From: Clostridia bacterium | GTDB lineage: Bacteria > Bacillota > Clostridia > Christensenellales > Aristaeellaceae | Reading direction: 5' to 3' | Assembly (NCBI GenBank): GCA_017410455.1 | Contig: JAFQQT010000064.1 | Location: 1 to 55,620 of the forward strand | Length of the DNA: 55,620 nt | In this document: positions 16,504 through 55,620 of the stretch, piece after piece | How the letters are laid out: each line of letters starts with the position of its first letter | Numbering within the stretch: position 1 is the stretch's first letter | Translations under genes and position numbers: made by a program | Notes under the pieces: model-generated | Told to the model about the DNA's origin: nothing | Database searches by the model: none | What the model saw: the letters and a program-made list of their open reading frames with translations, nothing else

Positions 16504-16527
16504 TGATGTGCTGGAGGCGTGTTGAAA

Positions 16528-17289
16528 ATGGCTTTTGAACGTGCGAATATCATTCAGCTGCGGCCGAATGTCTGGCTGATCGACGATGCGGGGGAGAGCA
16601 CCTGCTACGTCATCACCGGCAGCGAGAAGGCGCTGCTGGTGGACACGGCCAACGGCTATGAGAACCTGGCGGAGATCGTCCGCAGCATCACCGGCCTGCC
16701 GGTCATCGTGGTCAACACCCACGGGCATGGCGACCACATCCTGGGCAACGTGTACTTTGACGAGGCGTGGATGCACCCGGCGGATTTCGCGCTGCATGAC
16801 ATGTTCGCCGGGTATGCGCAGGAGCAGCTGGCGCAGAACGGCCTGAGCCTCTGCCCGCTGAAGCCCCTGAAAATCGGCCAGACATTCGACCTGGGCGGCG
16901 TGCAGCTGGAGGTGGTTGACCTCAAGGGCCACACCGCGGGCTCCGTCGGCCTGCTGGACAGGGCCGGGCGCATCCTCTACACCGGCGACGGGCTCAACAC
17001 CCACCTGTGGATGCAGCTGGATCACAGTCTGCCCATTGCCACGGCGCTGGAAACCTTCCGCGCACTGAAGGATAAGTACGGCGCGGATTTCGACCATGTT
17101 GCCCATGGCCATGCCAAGATGCTGCGCGACAAGGAGATTCTTGACTGGATGATCGCAGGCTGCGAGCGCATTCTCGCCGGTGAGACGCAGAACGATCTGC
17201 CCTACGAATACTTCGGCGGCGTGTGCCGCCAGCACCCCATCAGCGATTTGCCGGGGGAAGTCATTGTTTACAACGGGGGCGGGAAGTGA
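16528..17289 (+). CDS. MBL-fold metallo-hydrolase in the iol cluster
   Basis: A 253-residue single-domain metallo-beta-lactamase-fold hydrolase. The metal motif is THGHGDH (His65, His67, Asp69, His70). Further ligands are likely in GHTAGS (near 140), YTGDGLN (near 155) and VAHGHAK (near 195). Length and motif fit lactonase/glyoxalase-II-like members, but the substrate cannot be read from the sequence. The ATG at 16528 has GGAGG 10 bases upstream. GTG and TTG codons slightly earlier sit too close to that site. It lies between iolA and iolG, transcribed with them, so a role in inositol catabolism (lactone or thioester hydrolysis) is a reasonable inference. It is not one of the classical iol genes of Bacillus. 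Confidence 0.8.
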   Translation: MAFERANIIQLRPNVWLIDDAGESTCYVITGSEKALLVDTANGYENLAEIVRSITGLPVIVVNTHGHGDHILGNVYFDEAWMHPADFALHDMFAGYAQEQLAQNGLSLCPLKPLKIGQTFDLGGVQLEVVDLKGHTAGSVGLLDRAGRILYTGDGLNTHLWMQLDHSLPIATALETFRALKDKYGADFDHVAHGHAKMLRDKEILDWMIAGCERILAGETQNDLPYEYFGGVCRQHPISDLPGEVIVYNGGGK

Positions 17290-17332
17290 AGCCCCCGTAC
17301 AGATAACGTCAATCAATAAGGAGAGAAAAAAC

Positions 17333-18352
17333 ATGAAGAAGCTCAACATCGGTATCGTCGGCGCGGGCCGCATCGGCAAGGTGCACGCGGCCTCCATCAC
17401 CTACTACATCCCCCAGGCCCAGGTCGTGCGAGTGACGGACGTGATCGGCGACGCAGCCAAGGCGCTGGCGGAGACCTACGGCGTGCCTGCCTGGGGCACC
17501 GACTACATGGACATCATCAACGACCCGGAGATCGACGCGGTGCTGGTCTGCTCCCCCACGCCCACCCATGCCGACATCTCCATCGCCGCCATGAAGGCCG
17601 GGAAGCATGTCTTCTGCGAGAAGCCCGTTGACCTGACCATCGAGAAGATCAAAAAGACCGCCGAGGTTGCCGCCGAGACCGGCAAAAAGCTTCAGATTGG
17701 CTTCAACCGCCGCTTCGACCACAACCACGGCAAGGTGCAGAAGCTGGCCGCCAACGGCACCCTGGGCAACATTGAGCTGATCAAGATCACCTCCCGCGAC
17801 CCCGAGCCGCCGAGCCCTGAGTACGCTGCCTCCTCCGGCGGCCTGTACATCGACATGATGATCCACGACTTCGACATGGCCATGTTCCTGGCGGGCTGCG
17901 ACGTGAAGGAGGTCTACGCCATGGGTACCTCCCTGGTGGATCCCCGCATCGGCGAGGCCGGCGACGTGGACACCGCCATCGTCACCCTGACGTTTGAAAA
18001 TGGCGCCCTGGGCGTCATCGACAACAGCCGCCGCGCCGCTTACGGCTACGACCAGCGCGTGGAGGTATTTGGCTCCCTGGGCATGGCCGCGGGCGAGAAC
18101 GATGGCGACTCCACCGTGCGCGTGTCCACCGCCGCGGGCGTCGTGAGCGACAAGCCCCAGTACTTCTTCCTGGAGCGCTACATGGCCTCCTTCGTCGAGG
18201 AGATGAAGCAGTTCATCGCCGCCATCAACGAGGACAAGGAAGTGCCTGTGGGCATCCACGCCGGCCTGATGAGCGTCGTGCTGGCCAAGGCCGCGAAGAA
18301 GTCCCTGGACGAGCATCGCCCGGTCAAGATTTCCGAGATTCTGGAGGCGTAA
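17333..18352 (+). CDS. iolG: Inositol 2-dehydrogenase, IolG-like
   Basis: A 339-residue Gfo/Idh/MocA oxidoreductase that oxidises myo-inositol to scyllo-inosose with NAD. The Rossmann motif is GIVGAGRIGKVHA (7-19). Catalytic residues correspond to Lys97 in CEKPVD, Asp174 and His178 in YIDMMIHDFDM, nearly the spacing I recall for B. subtilis IolG (Lys97, Asp172, His176). The ATG at 17333 has AAGGAGAG upstream. A longer frame that begins inside the MBL gene is not a credible start. It heads a tight run with iolB (3-base gap) and iolD (1-base gap). Confidence 0.88.
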   Translation: MKKLNIGIVGAGRIGKVHAASITYYIPQAQVVRVTDVIGDAAKALAETYGVPAWGTDYMDIINDPEIDAVLVCSPTPTHADISIAAMKAGKHVFCEKPVDLTIEKIKKTAEVAAETGKKLQIGFNRRFDHNHGKVQKLAANGTLGNIELIKITSRDPEPPSPEYAASSGGLYIDMMIHDFDMAMFLAGCDVKEVYAMGTSLVDPRIGEAGDVDTAIVTLTFENGALGVIDNSRRAAYGYDQRVEVFGSLGMAAGENDGDSTVRVSTAAGVVSDKPQYFFLERYMASFVEEMKQFIAAINEDKEVPVGIHAGLMSVVLAKAAKKSLDEHRPVKISEILEA

Positions 18353-18355
18353 GCC

Positions 18356-19168
18356 ATGTCCGATATCATCCGTGCCAACGGCCCCCATGCCTTTGGCTGT
18401 ACCGAAATCACCCATCACACAGGGCCCATGCTGATGGACTTCGGCGTGCTGCGGCTCCAATACGGCCAGGCCTTCCACGATGAATACCCCCTGGAGCGCG
18501 CCTTCCTGCTGGTGTATGGCAAGGTCTGCTTCAAATGGGATGACGGCGAGCACACCGAGTACCGCGAGAACTGCTTCGACGTGCCGCCCACGGCCCTGCA
18601 TGTGTCCAAGGGCACGAAGGGCGTGACCGTCATCTGCCTGAGTGAGGAATGCGAGGTCAATGTCCTGCGCACGGTGAACGAGCGCGAGTTCCCGGCAAAG
18701 CTCTACCTGCCCAAGGATACCCCCGACGAGTTCCGCGGCGCGGGCACGATGCACGAGACCAGCACCCGCATCGTCCGCACGATTTTCGATTATTCCAACG
18801 CGCCCTGGGCGAACCTTGTTCTGGGCGAGGTCATCGGCTTCCCGGGCAAGTGGTCGAGCTATCCGCCCCACCACCACCCCCAGCCGGAGATCTACTACTA
18901 CAAGAACAACCCGGAAAACGGCTTCGGCTATGCCGAGGTGGGCGAGACGGTCTACAAGGTGCATAACGGCGATACCGTGTGCATCCCCGCCGGGATGACC
19001 CATCCCCAGTGTACGCCGCCCGGCTATGCGCTGTGGTACCTGTGGGCTATCCGCCACCTGGACGGCTGCCCCTACAAGCAGCCGGAGTACCCCGTTTTCC
19101 TGCCGGAGCACCTGTGGGTGCAGAAAAAGGACGAGCCCTACTGGGGCGACAGCTACGGAGGGCAGTGA
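18356..19168 (+). CDS. iolB: 5-deoxy-glucuronate isomerase, IolB-like
   Basis: A 270-residue bicupin protein that isomerises 5-deoxy-D-glucuronate to 2-deoxy-5-keto-D-gluconate. The second cupin carries PPHHHPQPEIYYYK near residue 177, the IolB metal-binding block, followed by HNGDTVCIPAGMTHPQ near 205. Length matches B. subtilis IolB (about 271). It starts 3 bases after iolG and ends 1 base before iolD. Confidence 0.92.
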   Translation: MSDIIRANGPHAFGCTEITHHTGPMLMDFGVLRLQYGQAFHDEYPLERAFLLVYGKVCFKWDDGEHTEYRENCFDVPPTALHVSKGTKGVTVICLSEECEVNVLRTVNEREFPAKLYLPKDTPDEFRGAGTMHETSTRIVRTIFDYSNAPWANLVLGEVIGFPGKWSSYPPHHHPQPEIYYYKNNPENGFGYAEVGETVYKVHNGDTVCIPAGMTHPQCTPPGYALWYLWAIRHLDGCPYKQPEYPVFLPEHLWVQKKDEPYWGDSYGGQ

Positions 19169-19169
19169 C

Positions 19170-21023
19170 ATGGAGAGAATCCGACTGACAATGGCCCAGG
19201 CGCTGGTGCGCTTCCTGGATAACCAGTATGTGGAGCTGGACGGCGTCGAAACCAAGTTCGTGAACAGCATCTTCGGCGTGTTCGGCCACGGCTGCGTGGT
19301 GGGCGTGGGACAGGCCCTCTCCCAGGGCGACCACAGCATCCGCTTCCTCCAGGGCAAGAACGAGCAGAATATGGCCCTGGCCGCCATGGCCTTCGCCAAA
19401 CAGAAGAACAGGCGCGAGATCATCCCCTGCGTGTCCTCCATCGGCCCGGGCGCGATGAACATGGTCACCGCTGCCGGGTGCGCTACGGCCAACCGCATCC
19501 CGCTGCTGCTGCTGCCCGGGGATACCTTTGCCTGCCGCCAGCCCGATCCGGTGCTGCAGCAGGCGGAGTTCTTCGACTCCTTCGGCCGCACGGTGACGGA
19601 CGCCTTCCGCGGCGTGTGCCACTACTTCGACCGCATCGAGCGCCCGGAGCAGCTGATGACCGCCGCGCTCCACGCCATGCGCGTGCTGACTGACCCCGCC
19701 GACACCGGCGCGGTCTGCCTGGCCATGCCCCAGGACGTGGAGGGCGAGGCCTACGATTACCCCATCGACTTCTTCCGCAGGCGCGTGTGGCACATGGATC
19801 GCCGTCCCATGACGGAGGGACAGCTGCAGCGCGTGATGGACATCCTGCGCAGGGCCGAGAAGCCCCTGGTCATCATGGGCGGCGGCGTGCGCTACTCCGA
19901 GGCGGGGGACGCTTTGATGGCCTTCTGCGAGGCGGCGGACATCCCCTTCGCCGAGACTCAGGCCGGTAAGGGAACTCTGCCCTGGATGCATCCGCTGAAT
20001 GTCGGCGGTATCGGCGTCACCGGCGGCAAGGCGGCCAATGTCCTGGCGCCCCAGGCGGATGTGGTCATCGCCGTGGGCAGCCGCCTGACGGACTTCACCA
20101 CCTCATCGAAGTGGCTGTTCCGGCATGATGCGAAGTTCATCGGCCTGAACATCTGCCCCTTTGACGCCATCAAGCTGGACGCGGAGGCCGTCATCTGCGA
20201 CGCAAAGGCGGGCCTGGAAAGGATGACCGCCGCGCTGGATGGCTACAAGGCAAAGTGGGGTGACGCCATCCGCACGGCAGTGGACGAGTGGAACGCCATC
20301 GTGGACGCCCACTATGCCGCCGATCCCGCCGAAGGGCTTTCCCAGACCCGCGCCCTGGGCGAGATCAACCGCTTCATGCAGCCCGGCGACATCGCCGTGG
20401 GCTCTGCCGGTTCCCTGCCCGGCGACATGCAGCGCCTTTTCCGCCCCGGTGAGCGCGACACCTACCACATGGAATACGGCTTCTCCAATATGGGCTATGA
20501 GACCAACGGCGCCTTGGGCGTGAAGCTGGCCGCCCCGGACAGGGAGGTGTACACCTTCTTTGGCGACGGCACCTACATGATGGCCCACTCCGAGCTCCTG
20601 ACCTGCGTGCAGGAGAAGCTGCGCGTCCACTTCTGCCTGTTCGACAACAGCGGCTGGGGCTGCATCGAGAACCTGCAGAACAATCAGGGCAACGACACCT
20701 TCGGCACGGTCTTCCGCTACCGTGACGAAAAGACCGGCCAGCTGGACGGCCCCATCCTGCCCATTGACTTCGCAGCCAACGCCGCCGCCTACGGCCTGAA
20801 GACCTACACCGTCCGCACGGCGGCCGAGCTGCGCGCTGCTCTGGCTGACGCGCTGACCCAGCCCCTGCCCGTGCTGTACGACATCAAGGTGCTGCCCGGC
20901 TCCATGACCCCCGGCTACGAAAACTGGTGGCGCGTGGGCGTGGCGGAGGTCTCCACCCAGCCCCGGGTGCAGGCTGCCTATGATGACCTGATGGCCCACG
21001 TCAAGGAGACGAGGGAGTTCTGA
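19170..21023 (+). CDS. iolD: Trihydroxycyclohexane-1,2-dione hydrolase, IolD-like
   Basis: A 617-residue thiamine-diphosphate enzyme of the acetolactate-synthase superfamily that opens the cyclohexane ring of 3D-(3,5/4)-trihydroxycyclohexane-1,2-dione to 5-deoxy-glucuronate. The N-terminal domain has FGVFGHGCVVGVGQAL and the SIGPGAMNMVTAA segment. The central domain starts near PLVIMGGGVRYSEA. The C-terminal ThDP domain has TFFGDGTYMMAHSEL and the NNQGND..FGT region. Length fits the family (about 620-640). The ATG at 19170 has GGAGGG upstream and sits one base after the iolB TGA. The longer frame starting inside iolB is rejected. Confidence 0.92.
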   Translation: MERIRLTMAQALVRFLDNQYVELDGVETKFVNSIFGVFGHGCVVGVGQALSQGDHSIRFLQGKNEQNMALAAMAFAKQKNRREIIPCVSSIGPGAMNMVTAAGCATANRIPLLLLPGDTFACRQPDPVLQQAEFFDSFGRTVTDAFRGVCHYFDRIERPEQLMTAALHAMRVLTDPADTGAVCLAMPQDVEGEAYDYPIDFFRRRVWHMDRRPMTEGQLQRVMDILRRAEKPLVIMGGGVRYSEAGDALMAFCEAADIPFAETQAGKGTLPWMHPLNVGGIGVTGGKAANVLAPQADVVIAVGSRLTDFTTSSKWLFRHDAKFIGLNICPFDAIKLDAEAVICDAKAGLERMTAALDGYKAKWGDAIRTAVDEWNAIVDAHYAADPAEGLSQTRALGEINRFMQPGDIAVGSAGSLPGDMQRLFRPGERDTYHMEYGFSNMGYETNGALGVKLAAPDREVYTFFGDGTYMMAHSELLTCVQEKLRVHFCLFDNSGWGCIENLQNNQGNDTFGTVFRYRDEKTGQLDGPILPIDFAANAAAYGLKTYTVRTAAELRAALADALTQPLPVLYDIKVLPGSMTPGYENWWRVGVAEVSTQPRVQAAYDDLMAHVKETREF

Positions 21024-21090
21024 TTCTTTTGCAAGTGATCACATCTGAAGCTGCCGCATTCTGAAGCGACAAACAAAGGAGGAACCCACC

Positions 21091-21987
21091 ATGCTGGATC
21101 CCAGGAAAGTCAAGCTTGCCATCGCCCCCATCGGCTGGACCAACGACGACATGCCCGATCTGGGCGGCGAAAACACCTTCGAGCAGTGCGTGAGCGAAAT
21201 GGCGCTCGCCGGCTTCAAGGGGAGCGAAATCGGCAACAAGTACCCCCAGGACGTGGCCGTCCTCAAGCACAAGCTGGACGTGCGCGGCCTTCAAATCTGC
21301 AACGCCTGGTTCTCCACGCTGTTCACCTCCGAGCCCTATGAGGTGACCATCCGCAACTTCATCGCCCACCGCGACCGCCTGCATGCCCTGGGCGCCAGGG
21401 TCATCGGCGCTTCCGAGCAGGGCAACTCCATCCAGGGCAAGCCCCTGAGCATCTTCGGCGCGGACAAGCCCGTCTACACCCGGGAGCAGTGGGAGCTGAT
21501 CGCCCGCGGCTACAATGAGCTGGGCGCGCTGGCGCAGGAGAAGGGCATGACGCTCACCTGCCACCACCACATGGGCACCGGCGTGCAGACGGCGGAGGAG
21601 ATCGACACCTTCATGTCCCTGATCGACCCGGAGAAGGTGTTCCTGCTCTTCGATTCCGGCCACCTGACCTTCGCGGGCATCGACCCGGTGCCGGTGCTGC
21701 GCAAGTACATCAGCCGCATCCGCCACATCCACCTCAAAGACGTGCGCCTTTCTGTGCGTGACCGTGCGCAGCAGGAGGGCTGGAGCTTCCTGCAGGCGGT
21801 GCGCGAGGGCGTTTTCACCGTGCCGGGCGATGGCGATGTGGACTTCACGCCCATCTTCGACATCATCGAGGAATCCGGCTATGAGGGCTGGGTGGTGGTG
21901 GAGGCTGAGCAGGATCCGGCCAAGGCCAACCCTTTCGAGTACGCGGTGAAGGCCCGCAAGTACATCGCGGAGAAGACCGGGCTGTAA
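21091..21987 (+). CDS. iolE: Inosose dehydratase, IolE-like
   Basis: A 298-residue TIM-barrel (xylose-isomerase-like) protein that dehydrates scyllo-inosose to the cyclohexane dione used by IolD. Typical features: [20 protein letters not shown] (11-30), [11 protein letters not shown] near 155, [15 protein letters not shown] near 187 and [11 protein letters not shown] near 210, giving metal-binding Asp/His positions. Length matches IolE (about 297). AAGGAGG precedes the ATG. It is the last gene of the cluster and is followed by the first copy of the 188-bp element. Confidence 0.92.
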
Positions 21988-21995
21988 GCCAGGCG

Positions 21996-22228
21996 TGGCG
22001 GCGGAGCAACCTCCGCCGTCAGACCATCAAAAAAGCCCACAACCGCATCTTTCCCGGCAGGGGTGCCGGAAAAGATGCTTCCTGCGTTGGCTGCAGCTGC
22101 AAATCCGGTCATTTACCGTGAAGTAAACTCCCGGGTTTACAGCTTTGCCGCCTTGGCTTGCAGACTTTTTTGAAGGTCTGCAAACCATCGACTTTATCGA
22201 TGCTTTGGCGGCGGAGCAACCTCCGCCG
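21996..22228. repeat. 188-bp structured repeat, copy 1, with 23-bp flanking direct repeats
   Basis: The core (22019-22206) is 188 bp and about 94% identical by hand count (11 mismatches) to copy 2 at 25228-25415, same orientation. It contains a 15-bp hairpin with one mismatch (22045-22078, GCATCTTTC... closing on ...AAAAGATGC around GGGG), a TTTAC/GTAAA stem, a GCAGAC/GTCTGC stem and a CATCGA/TCGATG stem. A perfect 23-bp sequence flanks it on both sides (21996-22018 and 22206-22228). That flank is itself a hairpin (CGGCGGAG CAAC CTCCGCCG), and its right copy is followed by CCCCTTTTG, so it resembles a terminator. The rest of the 315-base gap holds the GH38 ribosome binding site. Confidence 0.85.
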
Positions 22229-22302
22229 CCCCTTTTGCAGGATTCCGTTCCTGTGCGGCGAATGTTATTCCCCCAAAACCATCATGAAGGAGCGATCCCG
22301 TC

Positions 22303-25188
22303 ATGAAGCATATGCCCCGTCAACAGCGTCAGCGCCTGCAGGCCTGGCGGCAGGAACTCAAAAACCACCTGTACACGCCCGTGGGCACGGTGGACTTCAC
22401 CGGCTTCACCACCTTCGACCGCCTGAGGCCGGAGGACGCCGCGTCCATGGAGATGCGGCCTTTTCCCGTGGGGACGAAGTGGGGCGCATGCTGGGAGTAC
22501 GCCTGGTTCGCCGGGACGGTCACGCTGCCGGAGGGGTGCGAGGGCCGGCGAATCGTGCTGAAGTCCGGGCTGGGCGGCGAGCAGCTGATCTATGTGGACG
22601 GCGTTGCCCGGGGCAGCAACGACAAGGGGCACGACACGGTGCTCCTGCGCCGGGAAGCGAAGGCCGGGGAGACGGTGTCCCTGCTGATCGAGAGCTACGC
22701 CGGTCACGGTGCACGCCTGGAGGAGATGCCCCCCTGCCCGCCGGAGCGTCCGGCCATCCCGCCCGTGCCGGAGGCGCAGTGCACGGTGAAGCCCAGCGTC
22801 ATCGCCCTGTGGAATGAGGACGCCTACCAGCTGTACCTGGATGTGGAGTGCCTCTGCGGCCTGCTGGAGACGCTGCCGGAGAAGTCCCTGCGCCGTCAAC
22901 GGGTCACAAAGGCGCTGATGGACTTCACCTGCACGGCCGATTTCGAGCTTCCCATGAAGGAGCGGCACGAGAGCTTCCGCCGCGCCCGCGAGGTGCTGGC
23001 GCCTGCGCTCAGCTGCCACAACGGCTCCACGGCCCCCACCATGTGGCTGCTGGGCCAGAGCCACATCGACCTGGCCTGGATGTGGCCGGAGGAGGAGACC
23101 TGGCACAAGGTCGGCCGCACCTATTCCAACCAGCTGACGCTGATGGAGGAGTACCCGGAGTACCGCTTCCTCCTGTGCGAGCCGAGGCTCCTGGACATGC
23201 TGCGGGCGCAGCACCCGGAGATCTGGCGGCGGGTGATGGCGGCGCACGCGCGCGGGCAGATCGACCCCGAGGGCGCGTTCTACATCGAATGCGACACGAA
23301 CCTGCCCTCCGGTGAGAGTCTGATTCGGCAGCTCATCCGCGGCAAGCGCTGGTTCCGGGAGCATTTCGGCGTGGACAGCCAGGTGGCCTTCCAGCCGGAC
23401 ACCTTCGGGTATACCGGCGTGCTGCCGCAGATCCTGAAAAAGCTGAACATCCCGTATTTCGCCACGCAGAAACTCCTGCGGGCCGACCCGGAGTGCGAGC
23501 GCTTCCCGTACCAGAACTTCATCTGGGAGGGCATCGACGGCTCGACGGTGCAGGCGCTGTCCTTCTTCAAGAACAACGCGCAGGTCACGCCCGGGCAGTT
23601 CCACCAAAGGTGGAACTGCGACCGCACGCAGCAGGAGAACATCGACACGCTCCTGTTCCAGTTCGGCTTTGGCGATGGCGGCGGCGGCGCGACCCGCGAC
23701 ATGCTGGAGATGGCGCGGCGCATGGCCGATCTGGAGGGCCTGCCCCGGTCGCGCTACGGCGGCCTGAAGGAGTTCTTCGAGGAAACTGCCTGGCAGGCCG
23801 CCGGCAACCGCTGGGTGGGCGAGCTGTACCTGGCCTGGCACCGGGGCACGTACACCACCCAGCGCAGGACGAAGCAGCTGAGCCTGCAGGTCGAGCAGGG
23901 CCTGCATGACGCCGAGGCCCTGCTGTCCCTGCTGCCGGCGGCGGAGCGGGCGGAGCGCATGCCCGTTGTTCAGGCGGCGTGGGATGCGGTGATGTTCTGC
24001 CAGTTCCACGATGTGGCGGGCGGCGTGGGCATCCGCCGGGTGCATGAGGAGGCGGAGTGCGACCTGACGAAGCACCTGAAGGCGCTGTGGCGGCTGCTGC
24101 AGGCCCTCCGGGAGCGCATGCCGGAAATGCAGACGAACGGGGATGAAAAGAAGCCTGCCGGCGGCGTGTCCGTCACGGAAACGGCGGATGGTTACCTGAT
24201 GGAGAATGAACTGCTGGAGGTCTGCATCGACCGCAGCGGCGTCATCACCGCCATCACCGACAGGCGCAACGGCCTGCCGCTGATGGACCCGGGTCAGCGG
24301 ATGAACGACTGGCGGCTTTACGAGAACGTCGAAGTCGTCTACGATGGCTGGGAGATGAGCCGCGACTGGCGGGAGCGCCGCCTGGACACGGATTTCCACG
24401 CCGAATGCGCGATCGACGAAGCCGGGCCGGAGCGCGTGTGCCTGCGGGTGCAGATGCGCTTTGGCGACAGCATCGCTGAGCAGTTCATCTGCCTGTATGC
24501 CGGGGCAGACCGGATCGAGTTCTTCGCCAATGTGGACTGGCAGGAGCGCCGCAAGCTGCTGAAGGTGCACTTTGAATCGAATGTCCTGTGCGAGGACGCG
24601 CTGCATGAGATCCAGTTTGGCCATGTGAAGCGTCCCTGCCATGCGTCCCACGCCTTTGCGGCGGACCGGTACGAAACCTGCTCCAACCGCTGGACGGCGC
24701 TGTGCGAGGAGAACCGCGGCGTTGCCATCCTGACGGGCGGCATCCGCGGCGTATCCACCGACCGGGGCGAGATCGCCCTGTCCCTGCTGCGGGCGCCGCT
24801 GGTGCCTGACGACACGGCGGATCGCGGCGCCCACGGCTTCCTGTATGCCATCATGCCCTTTGCGACGGGCTTTGCCGGGGCGGGCGTGGTGAAGGCGGGC
24901 ATGGCCTTTGCAGACCCGGCCCGCGAGGATGCGGGCTTCCGGGTGGACAGCGACGCCATCATCCTGGAAACCATCAAGCCCGCTGATGACGGCTCGGAGG
25001 ACGTGGTCCTCCGCCTCTACGAGAGCCTGCGCACCCAGGCCACGGGCGTCCTGCACCTGCCCTTTGCGGCGAAGGTGTACGAGTCCGCCATGGACGAATC
25101 GGATCGCGGCGCGCTCCTGGGCGAGGGGACGGCCATCCCGCTGCGGATGAAGCCCTTTGAGATCCGCACGCTGCGGCTGGTCCGCTGA
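22303..25188 (+). CDS. Alpha-mannosidase, GH38
   Basis: A 961-residue cytoplasmic GH38 enzyme that removes alpha-linked mannose. An N-terminal beta-domain (residues about 1-235; KWGACWEYAWFAG near 59) precedes the catalytic barrel. There LGQSHIDLAWMWP supplies zinc ligands His254 and Asp256, and FQPDTFGY contains the nucleophile Asp366. A middle helical region and the C-terminal beta-sandwiches follow (SVTETADGYLMENELLEV onward). Length is within the bacterial GH38 range. AAGGAG lies about 10 bases before the ATG. The gene is alone between two copies of the 188-bp element and points the same way as the iol cluster. Its substrates could be host or yeast N-glycans, separate from the beta-mannan locus further right. 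Confidence 0.9.
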   Translation: MKHMPRQQRQRLQAWRQELKNHLYTPVGTVDFTGFTTFDRLRPEDAASMEMRPFPVGTKWGACWEYAWFAGTVTLPEGCEGRRIVLKSGLGGEQLIYVDGVARGSNDKGHDTVLLRREAKAGETVSLLIESYAGHGARLEEMPPCPPERPAIPPVPEAQCTVKPSVIALWNEDAYQLYLDVECLCGLLETLPEKSLRRQRVTKALMDFTCTADFELPMKERHESFRRAREVLAPALSCHNGSTAPTMWLLGQSHIDLAWMWPEEETWHKVGRTYSNQLTLMEEYPEYRFLLCEPRLLDMLRAQHPEIWRRVMAAHARGQIDPEGAFYIECDTNLPSGESLIRQLIRGKRWFREHFGVDSQVAFQPDTFGYTGVLPQILKKLNIPYFATQKLLRADPECERFPYQNFIWEGIDGSTVQALSFFKNNAQVTPGQFHQRWNCDRTQQENIDTLLFQFGFGDGGGGATRDMLEMARRMADLEGLPRSRYGGLKEFFEETAWQAAGNRWVGELYLAWHRGTYTTQRRTKQLSLQVEQGLHDAEALLSLLPAAERAERMPVVQAAWDAVMFCQFHDVAGGVGIRRVHEEAECDLTKHLKALWRLLQALRERMPEMQTNGDEKKPAGGVSVTETADGYLMENELLEVCIDRSGVITAITDRRNGLPLMDPGQRMNDWRLYENVEVVYDGWEMSRDWRERRLDTDFHAECAIDEAGPERVCLRVQMRFGDSIAEQFICLYAGADRIEFFANVDWQERRKLLKVHFESNVLCEDALHEIQFGHVKRPCHASHAFAADRYETCSNRWTALCEENRGVAILTGGIRGVSTDRGEIALSLLRAPLVPDDTADRGAHGFLYAIMPFATGFAGAGVVKAGMAFADPAREDAGFRVDSDAIILETIKPADDGSEDVVLRLYESLRTQATGVLHLPFAAKVYESAMDESDRGALLGEGTAIPLRMKPFEIRTLRLVR

Positions 25189-25204
25189 GAACAATAAGGC
25201 CGGG

Positions 25205-25449
25205 GTGCATGCGCTGCACTCCGGCATTCAGACCATCAAAAAAGCCCGCAACCGCATCATTTCCGGCAGGGGTGCCGGAAATGATGCTTCCTGCGTTGGC
25301 TGCAGCTGCAGATCCGGTCATTTACCGCGAAGTAAACTCCCGGATTTTCTGCTTTGCCGCCTTGGCTTGCAGACTTTTTTGAAGGTCAGCAAACCATCGA
25401 CTTTGTCGATGCTTTTAATACCGAAGTGCATGCGCTGCACTCCGGCATT
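25205..25449. repeat. 188-bp structured repeat, copy 2, with 24-bp flanking direct repeats
   Basis: The core (25228-25415) matches copy 1. Its main hairpin (25254-25287) is a perfect 15-bp stem, GCATCATTTCCGGCA / TGCCGGAAATGATGC around GGGG. A perfect 24-bp sequence (25205-25228 and 25426-25449) flanks it. The flank forms a GTGCA..TGCAC stem and is unrelated to the flank of copy 1. On the minus strand the main hairpin is followed by GGTTGCGGGCTTTTTTG, so it could terminate leftward transcription, including that of the minus-strand gene at 25454. Confidence 0.85.
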
Positions 25450-26757: not shown

Positions 26758-27894
26758 TCAGCGGCCGCCGCGGCCGGGCTTGCCGCCGGGTCTGCCGGGC
26801 ATTCCGCCGGGCCTGCCGGAGCCGCCTGCGCCGGGGCGGGAGCCGGGCCGGTCGCGCATGATGCCGCCGGGGGCCTTGCTGGCCGTACCGGGGCGCTGGT
26901 TGATGCGCGCCGCAGCGGGGGACGCGACCTTCCGGCCGCCCTCGGGGCGCTGGTTGATGCGCGCTGCAGCGGGGGATGCGACCTTCCGGCCGCTGTCGGT
27001 GCGCTGGTTGATGCGCGCCGCAGCGGGGGATGCGATCTTCCGGGCGGTTCCGCCCTGGGTGGCGGGCTGCGCCGGGCGGCGATGGGGCTGGGTGTGCAGC
27101 GGGCGCGGGGGCTCCACATGGTCGCGGCGGTCCTGCCGCACGGTGGGGTGGCTGGTGGGGTAGGCGGTGGCGTTGCGGCCCAGCACCCGGGTGGCGGTGG
27201 AGGTGCCGAAGAGGAGCCCCAGGCCGGAGAGCGCGGCGTCCAGCAGGGAGGGGCCATCTTCCTCCTCCGTGCCGGCGGCGGAAGCGCTGCTCTGCTGGTG
27301 GACGCACCAGTCGGACGGCGCGGTTTGCCCCGTGCAGACCTGGTAGACCTGGTTATGGAAGTCCACCAGGAAAGCGGCCAGGCGGGCGTCCTTATCCCCC
27401 TTGAGGGTGAGCTTCAGGCCCGAGCCGATCTGCAGCACGCCCTCCCGGTCGTCGGTGGACTGAACGCAGGCGATCCCGCCGTTGATGAAGGTTTCCCAGG
27501 AGAGGCTGCCCGAGCCGCTGTCGCAGCTGTAGTACAGGCCGGTGTCCGTCAGCGCCAGGCCGTCGGAGAAGCCCAGGATGATGATGTTGTGCGCCAGCAG
27601 GAACCAGACCTGCTCCCCATCGGGGATGGACAGGCCACGGCGGGCGGAATCCACGCCGGTGATGGGTTCGCCGAAGCAGTCCGCATCGATGCTGGCGAGG
27701 TTCTGCTTCGCGCCCATCTCCCGCAGGGTGGAAAGCGCGGTGGCGGTCACATCGGGCCTGGCGGCCTCGCTGGCAGCGGCAGCGTCGTAATGGGGGTTGC
27801 TGATGCTGTTGTCGCAGTATTCGCAGGTCAGAAAGGCGGTGGTGGTGGTGGGCACGAGCTTCGCGCCGCAGCAGGAACAGATCAGGTTTTCCAT
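26758..27894 (-). CDS. Zinc-ribbon protein with tandem 18-residue repeats
   Basis: A 378-residue protein I cannot assign to a named family. Residues 6-27 form a CxxC...CxxC zinc ribbon (Cys6/Cys9 and Cys24/Cys27). Residues about 70-200 form a globular domain of beta-strands (VWFLLAHNIIILGFSDGLALTD; SWETFINGGIACVQ; GLKLTLKGDKDARLAAFL), possibly PH-like. A short hydrophobic segment follows near 225 (LLDAALSGLGLLFGT). Residues 285-338 are three tandem copies of an 18-residue unit (core ASPAAARINQR), and the last 40 residues are Gly/Arg/Pro-rich. No signal peptide. ATG at 27894 is preferred because AAAGGAG lies about 8 bases upstream. A GTG three codons earlier overlaps that site. It is divergent from the macro-domain gene. 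Confidence 0.75.
   Translation of the reverse strand: MENLICSCCGAKLVPTTTTAFLTCEYCDNSISNPHYDAAAASEAARPDVTATALSTLREMGAKQNLASIDADCFGEPITGVDSARRGLSIPDGEQVWFLLAHNIIILGFSDGLALTDTGLYYSCDSGSGSLSWETFINGGIACVQSTDDREGVLQIGSGLKLTLKGDKDARLAAFLVDFHNQVYQVCTGQTAPSDWCVHQQSSASAAGTEEEDGPSLLDAALSGLGLLFGTSTATRVLGRNATAYPTSHPTVRQDRRDHVEPPRPLHTQPHRRPAQPATQGGTARKIASPAAARINQRTDSGRKVASPAAARINQRPEGGRKVASPAAARINQRPGTASKAPGGIMRDRPGSRPGAGGSGRPGGMPGRPGGKPGRGGR
26893..27054. repeat. Three tandem 54-bp repeats inside the zinc-ribbon gene
   Basis: Units start at 26893, 26947 and 27001, each beginning GCGCTGGTTGATGCGCGC. They differ by a few substitutions, mostly silent or conservative, and keep frame (54 = 18 codons), so copy number could vary without breaking the protein. 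Confidence 0.9.
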
Positions 27895-27992
27895 ATCGGC
27901 CACTCCTTTGGCGTATTGAGGCTGAAATTGTCTGTTTATAGTTTATCACAGCTTTTTGCCCACGGCAAGGGCTTTTTCTTTGCCGAAGGATG

Positions 27993-55311: not shown

Positions 55312-55620
<309 letters not shown>

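Follow-up and report, generated by a model that had tools for sequence, protein, structure and literature searches.

A 190-bp element of Clostridia between duplicated terminator-like hairpins, and its probable mobilisation by IS1182-family transposases

Two short, closely similar non-coding sequences bracket a gene in the stretch of Clostridia bacterium DNA analysed here (the window; 55,620 nt, contig JAFQQT010000064.1 of assembly GCA_017410455.1), and each of them is enclosed by a duplicated hairpin that it does not share with the other, which raises the question of what these sequences are and how they came to sit between duplicated hairpins. The window's own genome (G000) comprises 3.30 Mb in 93 contigs and is 92% complete. 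We propose that the sequences are copies of a 190-bp DNA transposon resembling a miniature inverted-repeat transposable element (MITE), very probably moved in trans by an IS1182-type DDE transposase, with a hairpin as target that is duplicated whole.

The element and its duplicated hairpins

Element copy 1 (22019..22208, plus strand) is a non-coding sequence of 190 bp, running from TCAGACCATCAAAAAAG to ATCGATGCTTTGG with several predicted hairpins, and element copy 2 (25228..25417, plus strand) has the same length. The first-pass annotation of the window had described cores at 22019-22206 and 25228-25415; these coordinates were right, with both cores on the same strand and 94% identical over 188 nt, and the length of 188 bp stands for the matched stretch, while the element itself is better bounded at 190 bp. 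The perfect direct repeats described there were also found, with 23 bp around copy 1 (21996-22018 / 22206-22228) and 24 bp around copy 2 (25205-25228 / 25426-25449), the latter inside a 34-nt repeat at 88% identity, and folding showed that both flank pairs are GC-rich hairpins. The terminal bases TGG of copy 1 and the T at 25228 of copy 2 may be assigned to either the element or the repeat.

The left hairpin of copy 1 (CGGCGGAGCAACCTCCGCCG, 21999..22018, plus strand) lies within the 23-bp repeat, and the right copy of this repeat (22206..22228, plus strand) contains the hairpin at 22209-22228, followed by CCCCTTTT in the shape of an intrinsic terminator. This target hairpin is located at the 3′ end of the upstream iolE gene, which encodes myo-inosose-2 dehydratase (21091..21987, plus strand; NCBIfam TIGR04379, 396 bits with a cut-off of 290). 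Copy 2 has its left hairpin at 25199..25228 (GCCGGGGTGCATGCGCTGCACTCCGGC plus ATT, plus strand) and its right hairpin at 25420..25449 (plus strand), which has a partly changed outer stem and is followed by GATTTTA, so that the duplicated unit looks like the whole hairpin, with the right outer stem altered since. The gene between the two copies (22303..25188, plus strand), named GH38 in the first-pass annotation, matches mannosylglycerate hydrolase of NCBIfam only weakly, with 64 bits against a cut-off of 1138.

There were 26 matches to the element in the window's own genome, one of them truncated, and a survey of the genus gave matches in 6/18 genomes (own included, E ≤ 0.001), with full copies in G003 and G008 at 75–79% identity. 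The flanks were compared for 40 full-length copies, 25 from G000 and 15 from G003 and G008, leaving out the truncated copy (L026) and the partial matches in G003, G008 and other genomes; each left flank was aligned, by best local match, with its own right flank and with the right flanks of the other loci. The own-flank score had a median of 25, and the cross-locus score a median of 6 and a maximum of 12 (1,558 pairs), with the own-flank score exceeding this maximum in 39/40 copies. The long target duplication seen at the two window copies is thus matched within the locus and different between loci in these 39 copies, and the possibility raised with that suggestion, that the same flank always accompanies the core, was not borne out. 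Folding was possible for 38 copies (L018, whose left flank is 17 nt long, was scored but not folded), in which the aligned repeat was 20–39 bp long, and in 37 of them the foot of the hairpin lay at most 2 nt from the end of the element, the exception being window copy 2 with its altered right outer stem. The length of the duplication therefore follows the hairpin; a duplication of over 20 bp had been suggested, which holds for its length and not for a fixed unit, since the duplicated stretch runs from hairpin foot to hairpin foot.

The corresponding places in relatives were located via the GH38 gene. Six loci were read for the position of copy 2, 3′ of GH38: a single terminator-like hairpin was present in G005, G011 and G012, G002 had a single hairpin and then a different gene, and G003 and G016 showed a short gap with no obvious hairpin. 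For the position of copy 1, 3′ of iolE, three loci were read, with a single hairpin and a T-rich stretch in G012 and G017 and no clear hairpin in G015. By eye, the element was absent from all six stretches 3′ of GH38, as it was from the three stretches shown 3′ of iolE, giving empty sites with a single hairpin at 3/6 and 2/3 loci, respectively. The hairpin-flanked copies and these single-hairpin sites agree with the earlier suggestion of insertion at terminator-like hairpins. The same gene follows GH38 in G003, G005, G011, G012 and G016, and as this gene order is kept in five relatives without elements there, movement of GH38 by the element pair, which had also been suggested, is unsupported and was rejected.

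An extremely improbable explanation makes the hairpins part of the element, as a structured RNA module of a core and two hairpins that spreads by copying. Core and flanks do fold jointly with strongly favourable energy (z = −9.3 for copy 1 and −8.5 for copy 2 with their flanks, relative to dinucleotide shuffles), yet the hairpins match within and not between loci, and at the window sites a lone hairpin without any core was seen in some relatives; in our reading, these two findings together exclude the flanks from the element. A contig of G003 (C37) carries the arrangement hairpin-core-hairpin-core-hairpin, which fits a second insertion into a duplicated hairpin. The truncated L026 (seen in L060) lacks its first hundred bases and is still flanked by two hairpin copies. 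Four partial copies in G008 and G003 (L056, L057, L058 and L062) stop short within the element while retaining its left end, in some cases with a terminator-like hairpin at the break. With 190 bp the element is too short for a transposase gene, and the view of it as mobile and non-autonomous has held. The element, its boundaries, the locus-specific duplication and the empty sites in some relatives are directly supported.

Related elements and IS1182-type insertion sequences

Beyond the genus, a covariance model of the element gave matches in 30/200 genomes of the family and 14/50 genera (own included), with at most 13 candidates scored per genome. Among the 29 best loci from other genomes, 26 were usable (the flank was cut in L187, L191 and L200), and 15 of these 26 showed hairpin duplication (score ≥13; the maximum of 1,106 cross pairs was 11). 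The left end was also found, among the matches listed, in the metagenome-assembled genomes Clostridia bacterium RGIG4755 (roe deer rectum) and Clostridiales bacterium SIG357; there was no match of one Clostridia element (L180) in the plasmid collection or of window copy 1 in the phage collection. At L066 / L181 (G001:C4), two tandem cores resembling the enterobacterial ERIC repeat were found that have no TCAGA end and no duplicated hairpins, with an A-hairpin-T stretch in each.

A search of the genus with the left end also recovered a class of longer elements of about 220–510 bp, with ends like TCAG..TGTCAAAAAA and TTTTTCGACAC.CTGA. By eye, the hairpin was repeated on both sides at 14/27 of these loci (L102, L106, L108, L109, L110, L113, L114, L115, L117, L119 and L122-L125); several of the other 13 run off their contigs, and in the rest no second end was recognised. 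One locus with TCAG-type ends (L127, in G005) encodes a transposase and has 25-bp hairpin repeats on either side. Its protein, with Pfam DUF772 and DDE domains, belongs to the IS1182 family, as does that of L141 (NCBIfam NF033551, 415 and 427 bits, respectively, cut-off 270), and it was matched in 25/200 genomes of the family.

The family survey of such insertion sequences (ISs) comprised 33 loci, including two pairs at the same place (L127/L129 and L126/L146). Nine ISs had TCAG-like repeats and both ends read, loci with one end or a partial gene being excluded, and six of these nine lay between duplicated hairpins (L127, L130, L133, L138, L141 and L145). The ends of the ISs of the family clade (L133, L136, L138, L139, L141 and L145) resemble those of the element, for which the consensus ends are TCAGACCATCAAAAAAG and TCAAAGCATCGACAAAG in their longer form, at 11–15/17 positions for the left end and 11–14/17 for the consensus right end; the best match was the left end of L141 (15/17), and the left ends of L136, L138 and L145 reached 14/17. 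With the L141 protein as query, 13/391 genomes of the class matched (own included), and besides the IS of G000, 13 of the 15 copies found class-wide lay between two copies of one hairpin. Most IS ends of this set start with TCAG (TGAG in L220, TCAA in L222), and of the four copies of one IS in G391, three occupy three different hairpins, each duplicated. No such hairpin repeat was found at the ISs with GG..CTGTTGA ends (L126, L148 and L158). A transposase tree of 27 rows separated 17 hairpin-duplicating rows from four GGACC-type rows with a split support of 100/99; six ungrouped rows sided with the hairpin-duplicating rows, and the GGACC rows have flagged long branches. Over elements and ISs together, 73/81 flank pairs passed the score cut, with 67 matching in direct orientation, two tied and four better inverted. 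Two of these four (L184 and L228) have an inverted loop, perhaps left by hairpin processing or by later flipping of the loop; in the other two, A/T tracts extend the inverted match. The resembling ends of the IS1182-type ISs and their shared hairpin habit are likewise directly supported.

Is the element itself then a DNA transposon? Its consensus ends TCAGACCATC and TCAAAGCATC agree with each other at 8/10 and 13/17 positions and form imperfect terminal inverted repeats. These repeats, the transposase-free length, the IS1182-like ends and the shared hairpin habit are those of a MITE; an autonomous copy in the same genome was not found. The first-pass annotation had left room for a retro-mobile element, that is, one whose RNA is reverse transcribed into the hairpin site in the style of a group IIC intron. 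Group IIC introns use terminator hairpins, and the core is RNA-like in its structure: in an alignment of 39 copies (L017 excluded), 16/50 predicted pairs had at least one sequence changed on both sides with pairing kept, 10 of the 16 in the variable first internal hairpin (22045..22078, plus strand, in copy 1). Truncated copies exist as well, but the truncations are found at either end of the element. We know of no whole-hairpin duplications by group IIC introns, which counts against this route, as do the 190 bp, too short for a reverse transcriptase, and the Rfam search of the window, which at gathering score gave nothing for the element and no intron, the only match being ribosomal RNA (rRNA) at the window end. 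As the ends resemble the terminal repeats of ISs that carry a DDE transposase and share the habit of duplicating hairpins, the retro-element reading, which we regard as very improbable, was dropped.

In the mechanism that we favour, the imperfect terminal inverted repeats of the element would be recognised by an IS1182-family DDE transposase provided in trans, and the target would be a hairpin structure rather than a sequence, usually terminator-like and at a gene end. The 3′ ends of the element would be joined to the feet on opposite sides of a hairpin extruded as a cruciform, leaving the hairpin strands as gaps, and gap filling would duplicate the whole stem-loop exactly and place a complete hairpin on each side of the element. 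The outer A-tract and T-tract would stay outside, so that each neighbouring gene could retain a terminator on its side, and the element may be a passenger in the 3′ end of the transcript. We infer the action of the transposase in trans on the element, the cruciform as substrate, the order of strand joining and the harmlessness for termination.

Several observations weigh against this mechanism. The own two ends of the element agree at only 13/17 positions. One copy in G000 (L017, contig C56), the sole exception among the 40 tested, has an unrelated left flank near the contig end with no matching hairpin. In other genomes, 11 of the 26 usable loci were without duplication, among them four whose ends are recognisable and whose two hairpins differ (L190, L193, L196 and L205); the rest include weaker matches with uncertain ends. 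The hairpins on the two sides do not match at three of the nine ISs (L136, L139 and L142), and of the two exceptions among the 15 class-wide copies, L223 shares half the hairpin and L232 has two unlike hairpins. Such unlike hairpins, in elements and ISs, would have to come from copies recombining with one another, from later replacement or from errors of assembly. Stop codons are present in the transposase match of L130, L138 and L142, and these ISs need not all be active. A Paracoccus IS of the IS1182 family is listed with a 4-bp repeat in an excerpt of PMC3281130. Finally, G000, G003 and G008 yielded no gene of the IS1182 type whose ends match; the only IS1182-type gene of G000 (L126, contig C81) has GGGTCTGTTGACAAA-type ends, which match the element at 5/17 and 3/17 positions, and no repeated hairpin at its sides. 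As these assemblies are 77–92% complete, this absence is weak but real evidence.

The missing partner raises the alternative that another type of enzyme moves this hairpin-targeting element, with the likeness of its ends to those of the ISs being secondary. That no matching autonomous IS was found in the three genomes speaks for it, and so does a core that resembles ERIC, for whose mover we know of no evidence. The best end matches, at 14–15/17, and the same whole-hairpin duplication in ISs of the same bacterial family stand against it, as do G005, G068 and G109, which carry elements of these classes as well as a TCAG-type IS. We consider a different enzyme improbable and movement by an IS1182-family transposase the better account.

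Setting at transcript ends

The direction of neighbouring genes was called from a codon-usage score trained on seven genes of the window, the longest open reading frames (ORFs) being misleading because of long antisense ORFs. The upstream gene could be scored for 38 of the 40 copies and pointed towards the element in 33, away from it in one, and was unclear in four. In the 32 cases where both neighbours were callable, 26 pairs were convergent, five co-directional with the element and one opposite, as raw counts without a background share. The right hairpin was followed by a T-rich stretch (≥4 T in 9 bases) in 30/38 copies and the left hairpin preceded by an A-rich stretch (≥4 A in 9 bases) in 30/38 copies, with both outer tracts present together in 25. 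The outer tracts and the convergent neighbours thus indicate that the element splits terminator-like sites, often two-way ones, and that a hairpin and an outer tract remain on each side. This suggests how insertions could accumulate at the ends of transcripts without doing much harm, since a hairpin with its outer tract faces each neighbour.

The same placement might come mainly from selection and not from target choice, if the element persisted through a role in mRNA, such as stability or processing of the 3′ end. The positions behind stop codons and between convergent genes would agree with such a role, and ERIC affects mRNA stability in Yersinia, according to an excerpt of PMC2229807. A role of this kind alone leaves the exact duplication unexplained and is compatible with transposition rather than an alternative to it; as the main cause of the placement we consider it possible but unlikely.

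Elsewhere in the window, a run of co-directional genes (16519-21987) ends with iolE, and the neighbours look like genes of inositol catabolism by reading of their ORFs, with iolE alone tested by profile. A 54-bp tandem repeat (26889-27043; 2.9 copies, 93%) lies within a long ORF on the minus strand (26758-27903) and gives a repeated peptide. The 5′ part of a 16S rRNA gene (55312-55620) is located at the contig end, where the assembly breaks in the rRNA operon.

Comparison with known systems

The statements on known systems below draw on excerpts of the reports cited. IS1272 and TnSha1 target a stem-loop, often a terminator, without a sequence consensus (PMC4923244, PMC5678879), and the hairpins that they occupy, several of which are terminators, are partly deleted and not duplicated (PMC4923244); for palindromic targets of the IS1182 family, a 2015 review is cited in PMC4923244. 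These staphylococcal ISs are of the same IS1182 family as the ISs described here (by NCBIfam) and share the stem-loop target, but they delete or replace the stem-loop, whereas the Clostridia elements and ISs duplicate it whole. Duplication of the hairpin is drawn in Fig. 13 of PMC5678879 as a hypothetical pathway b beside the stem-loop replacement inferred for IS1272, and the Clostridia copies look like a natural case of that pathway. PMC12056078 notes that information is scarce and that duplication of the target may or may not accompany the action of IS1182-related transposases.

The YPAL or RU-2 element of Yersinia, of about 168 bp, shows duplications of 3–26 bp and targets that span or adjoin dyad symmetry (PMC2229807). 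Like the window element it is small and non-coding, with a duplication of variable length at dyad symmetry, and it differs in belonging to another phylum (enterobacteria). Its printed ends, TCAGACTGCTGACAAAC and TGAGGTTATTGACAAAG (PMC2759123), were compared with those of 22 IS1182-type ISs (best register within 3 nt, right end of L228 excluded). The YPAL 5′ end agreed with the IS ends at 9–15/17 positions, with 15 in L139 left, L219 right, L225 right, L233 left and L234 left, and the 3′ end at 8–14/17, with 14 in L219 left and L220 left; 14/17 at a single fixed position would arise by chance with a probability of about 1e-6, although the number of comparisons was large. Agreement of the YPAL ends with L127-type ends and with the window element's own ends was only 9–11/17 (10–11/17 for the window element), and with ERIC-like elements of other genera (L180, L188 and L189) it was 11–15/17; in the printed sequence, no likeness of the YPAL body to the window element was seen by eye, without alignment. 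A YPAL relative of 75% identity is present in 5/5,426 E. coli genomes; in two of these records, which share the same 311 bases, it has CAGGGGCCATATGCCCCTG on one side and CAGGGGCAAAATGCCCCTG on the other, hairpins identical at 17/19 positions. A YPAL-like element enclosed by near-identical hairpins, with a broken IS5-family gene nearby, was noted in the chromosome of the wastewater E. coli ABWA45 (L245) and on plasmids (L246). Judging from one independent E. coli site and the comparison of ends, YPAL probably works in the same way as the Clostridia element.

ERIC, or IRU (127 bp), resembles the window element in the core order GTCA.TTAC..GTAA.CTCC..CGCCTT..TGCA, to a degree that varies between single Clostridia copies. 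Window copy 2 scored above all 1,000 dinucleotide shuffles when aligned with one E. coli ERIC, and for seven other Clostridia copies the alignment with the same ERIC was equalled or beaten by 1 to 241 of 1,000 shuffles; the covariance model gave 14 bits (E 1.2e-4 in 844 bases). Both the ends and the target duplications of ERIC are TA (PMC2229807, PMC2759123), in contrast to the TCA...TGA ends and the hairpin duplication of the window element.

Small repeats that target terminators and a hairpin-targeting IS1182 family are already known; as far as could be seen, what is new is the foot-to-foot duplication of the hairpin, the matched ISs and the Clostridia families. No report of whole-hairpin duplication by an IS1182-type IS, or of a link between YPAL and IS1182, was found among the matches listed in the open literature, most subscription journals lying outside it. 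We lean towards the view that one IS1182 clade is guided by structure, inserts into extruded terminator hairpins, duplicates them from foot to foot and has moved the Clostridia elements, YPAL and perhaps the ancestor of ERIC. If so, every insertion would rebuild a terminator on both sides, whatever the sequence or length of the hairpin, and the copies would provide many natural examples of a target-site duplication set by structure and not by a fixed stagger; a hairpin-aimed transposase could also serve as a tool for insertion at transcript ends. For orphan small non-autonomous repeats of the ERIC and YPAL type, whose mover was still unidentified according to the excerpted 2007 review (PMC2229807), such a clade would supply a specific and testable candidate.

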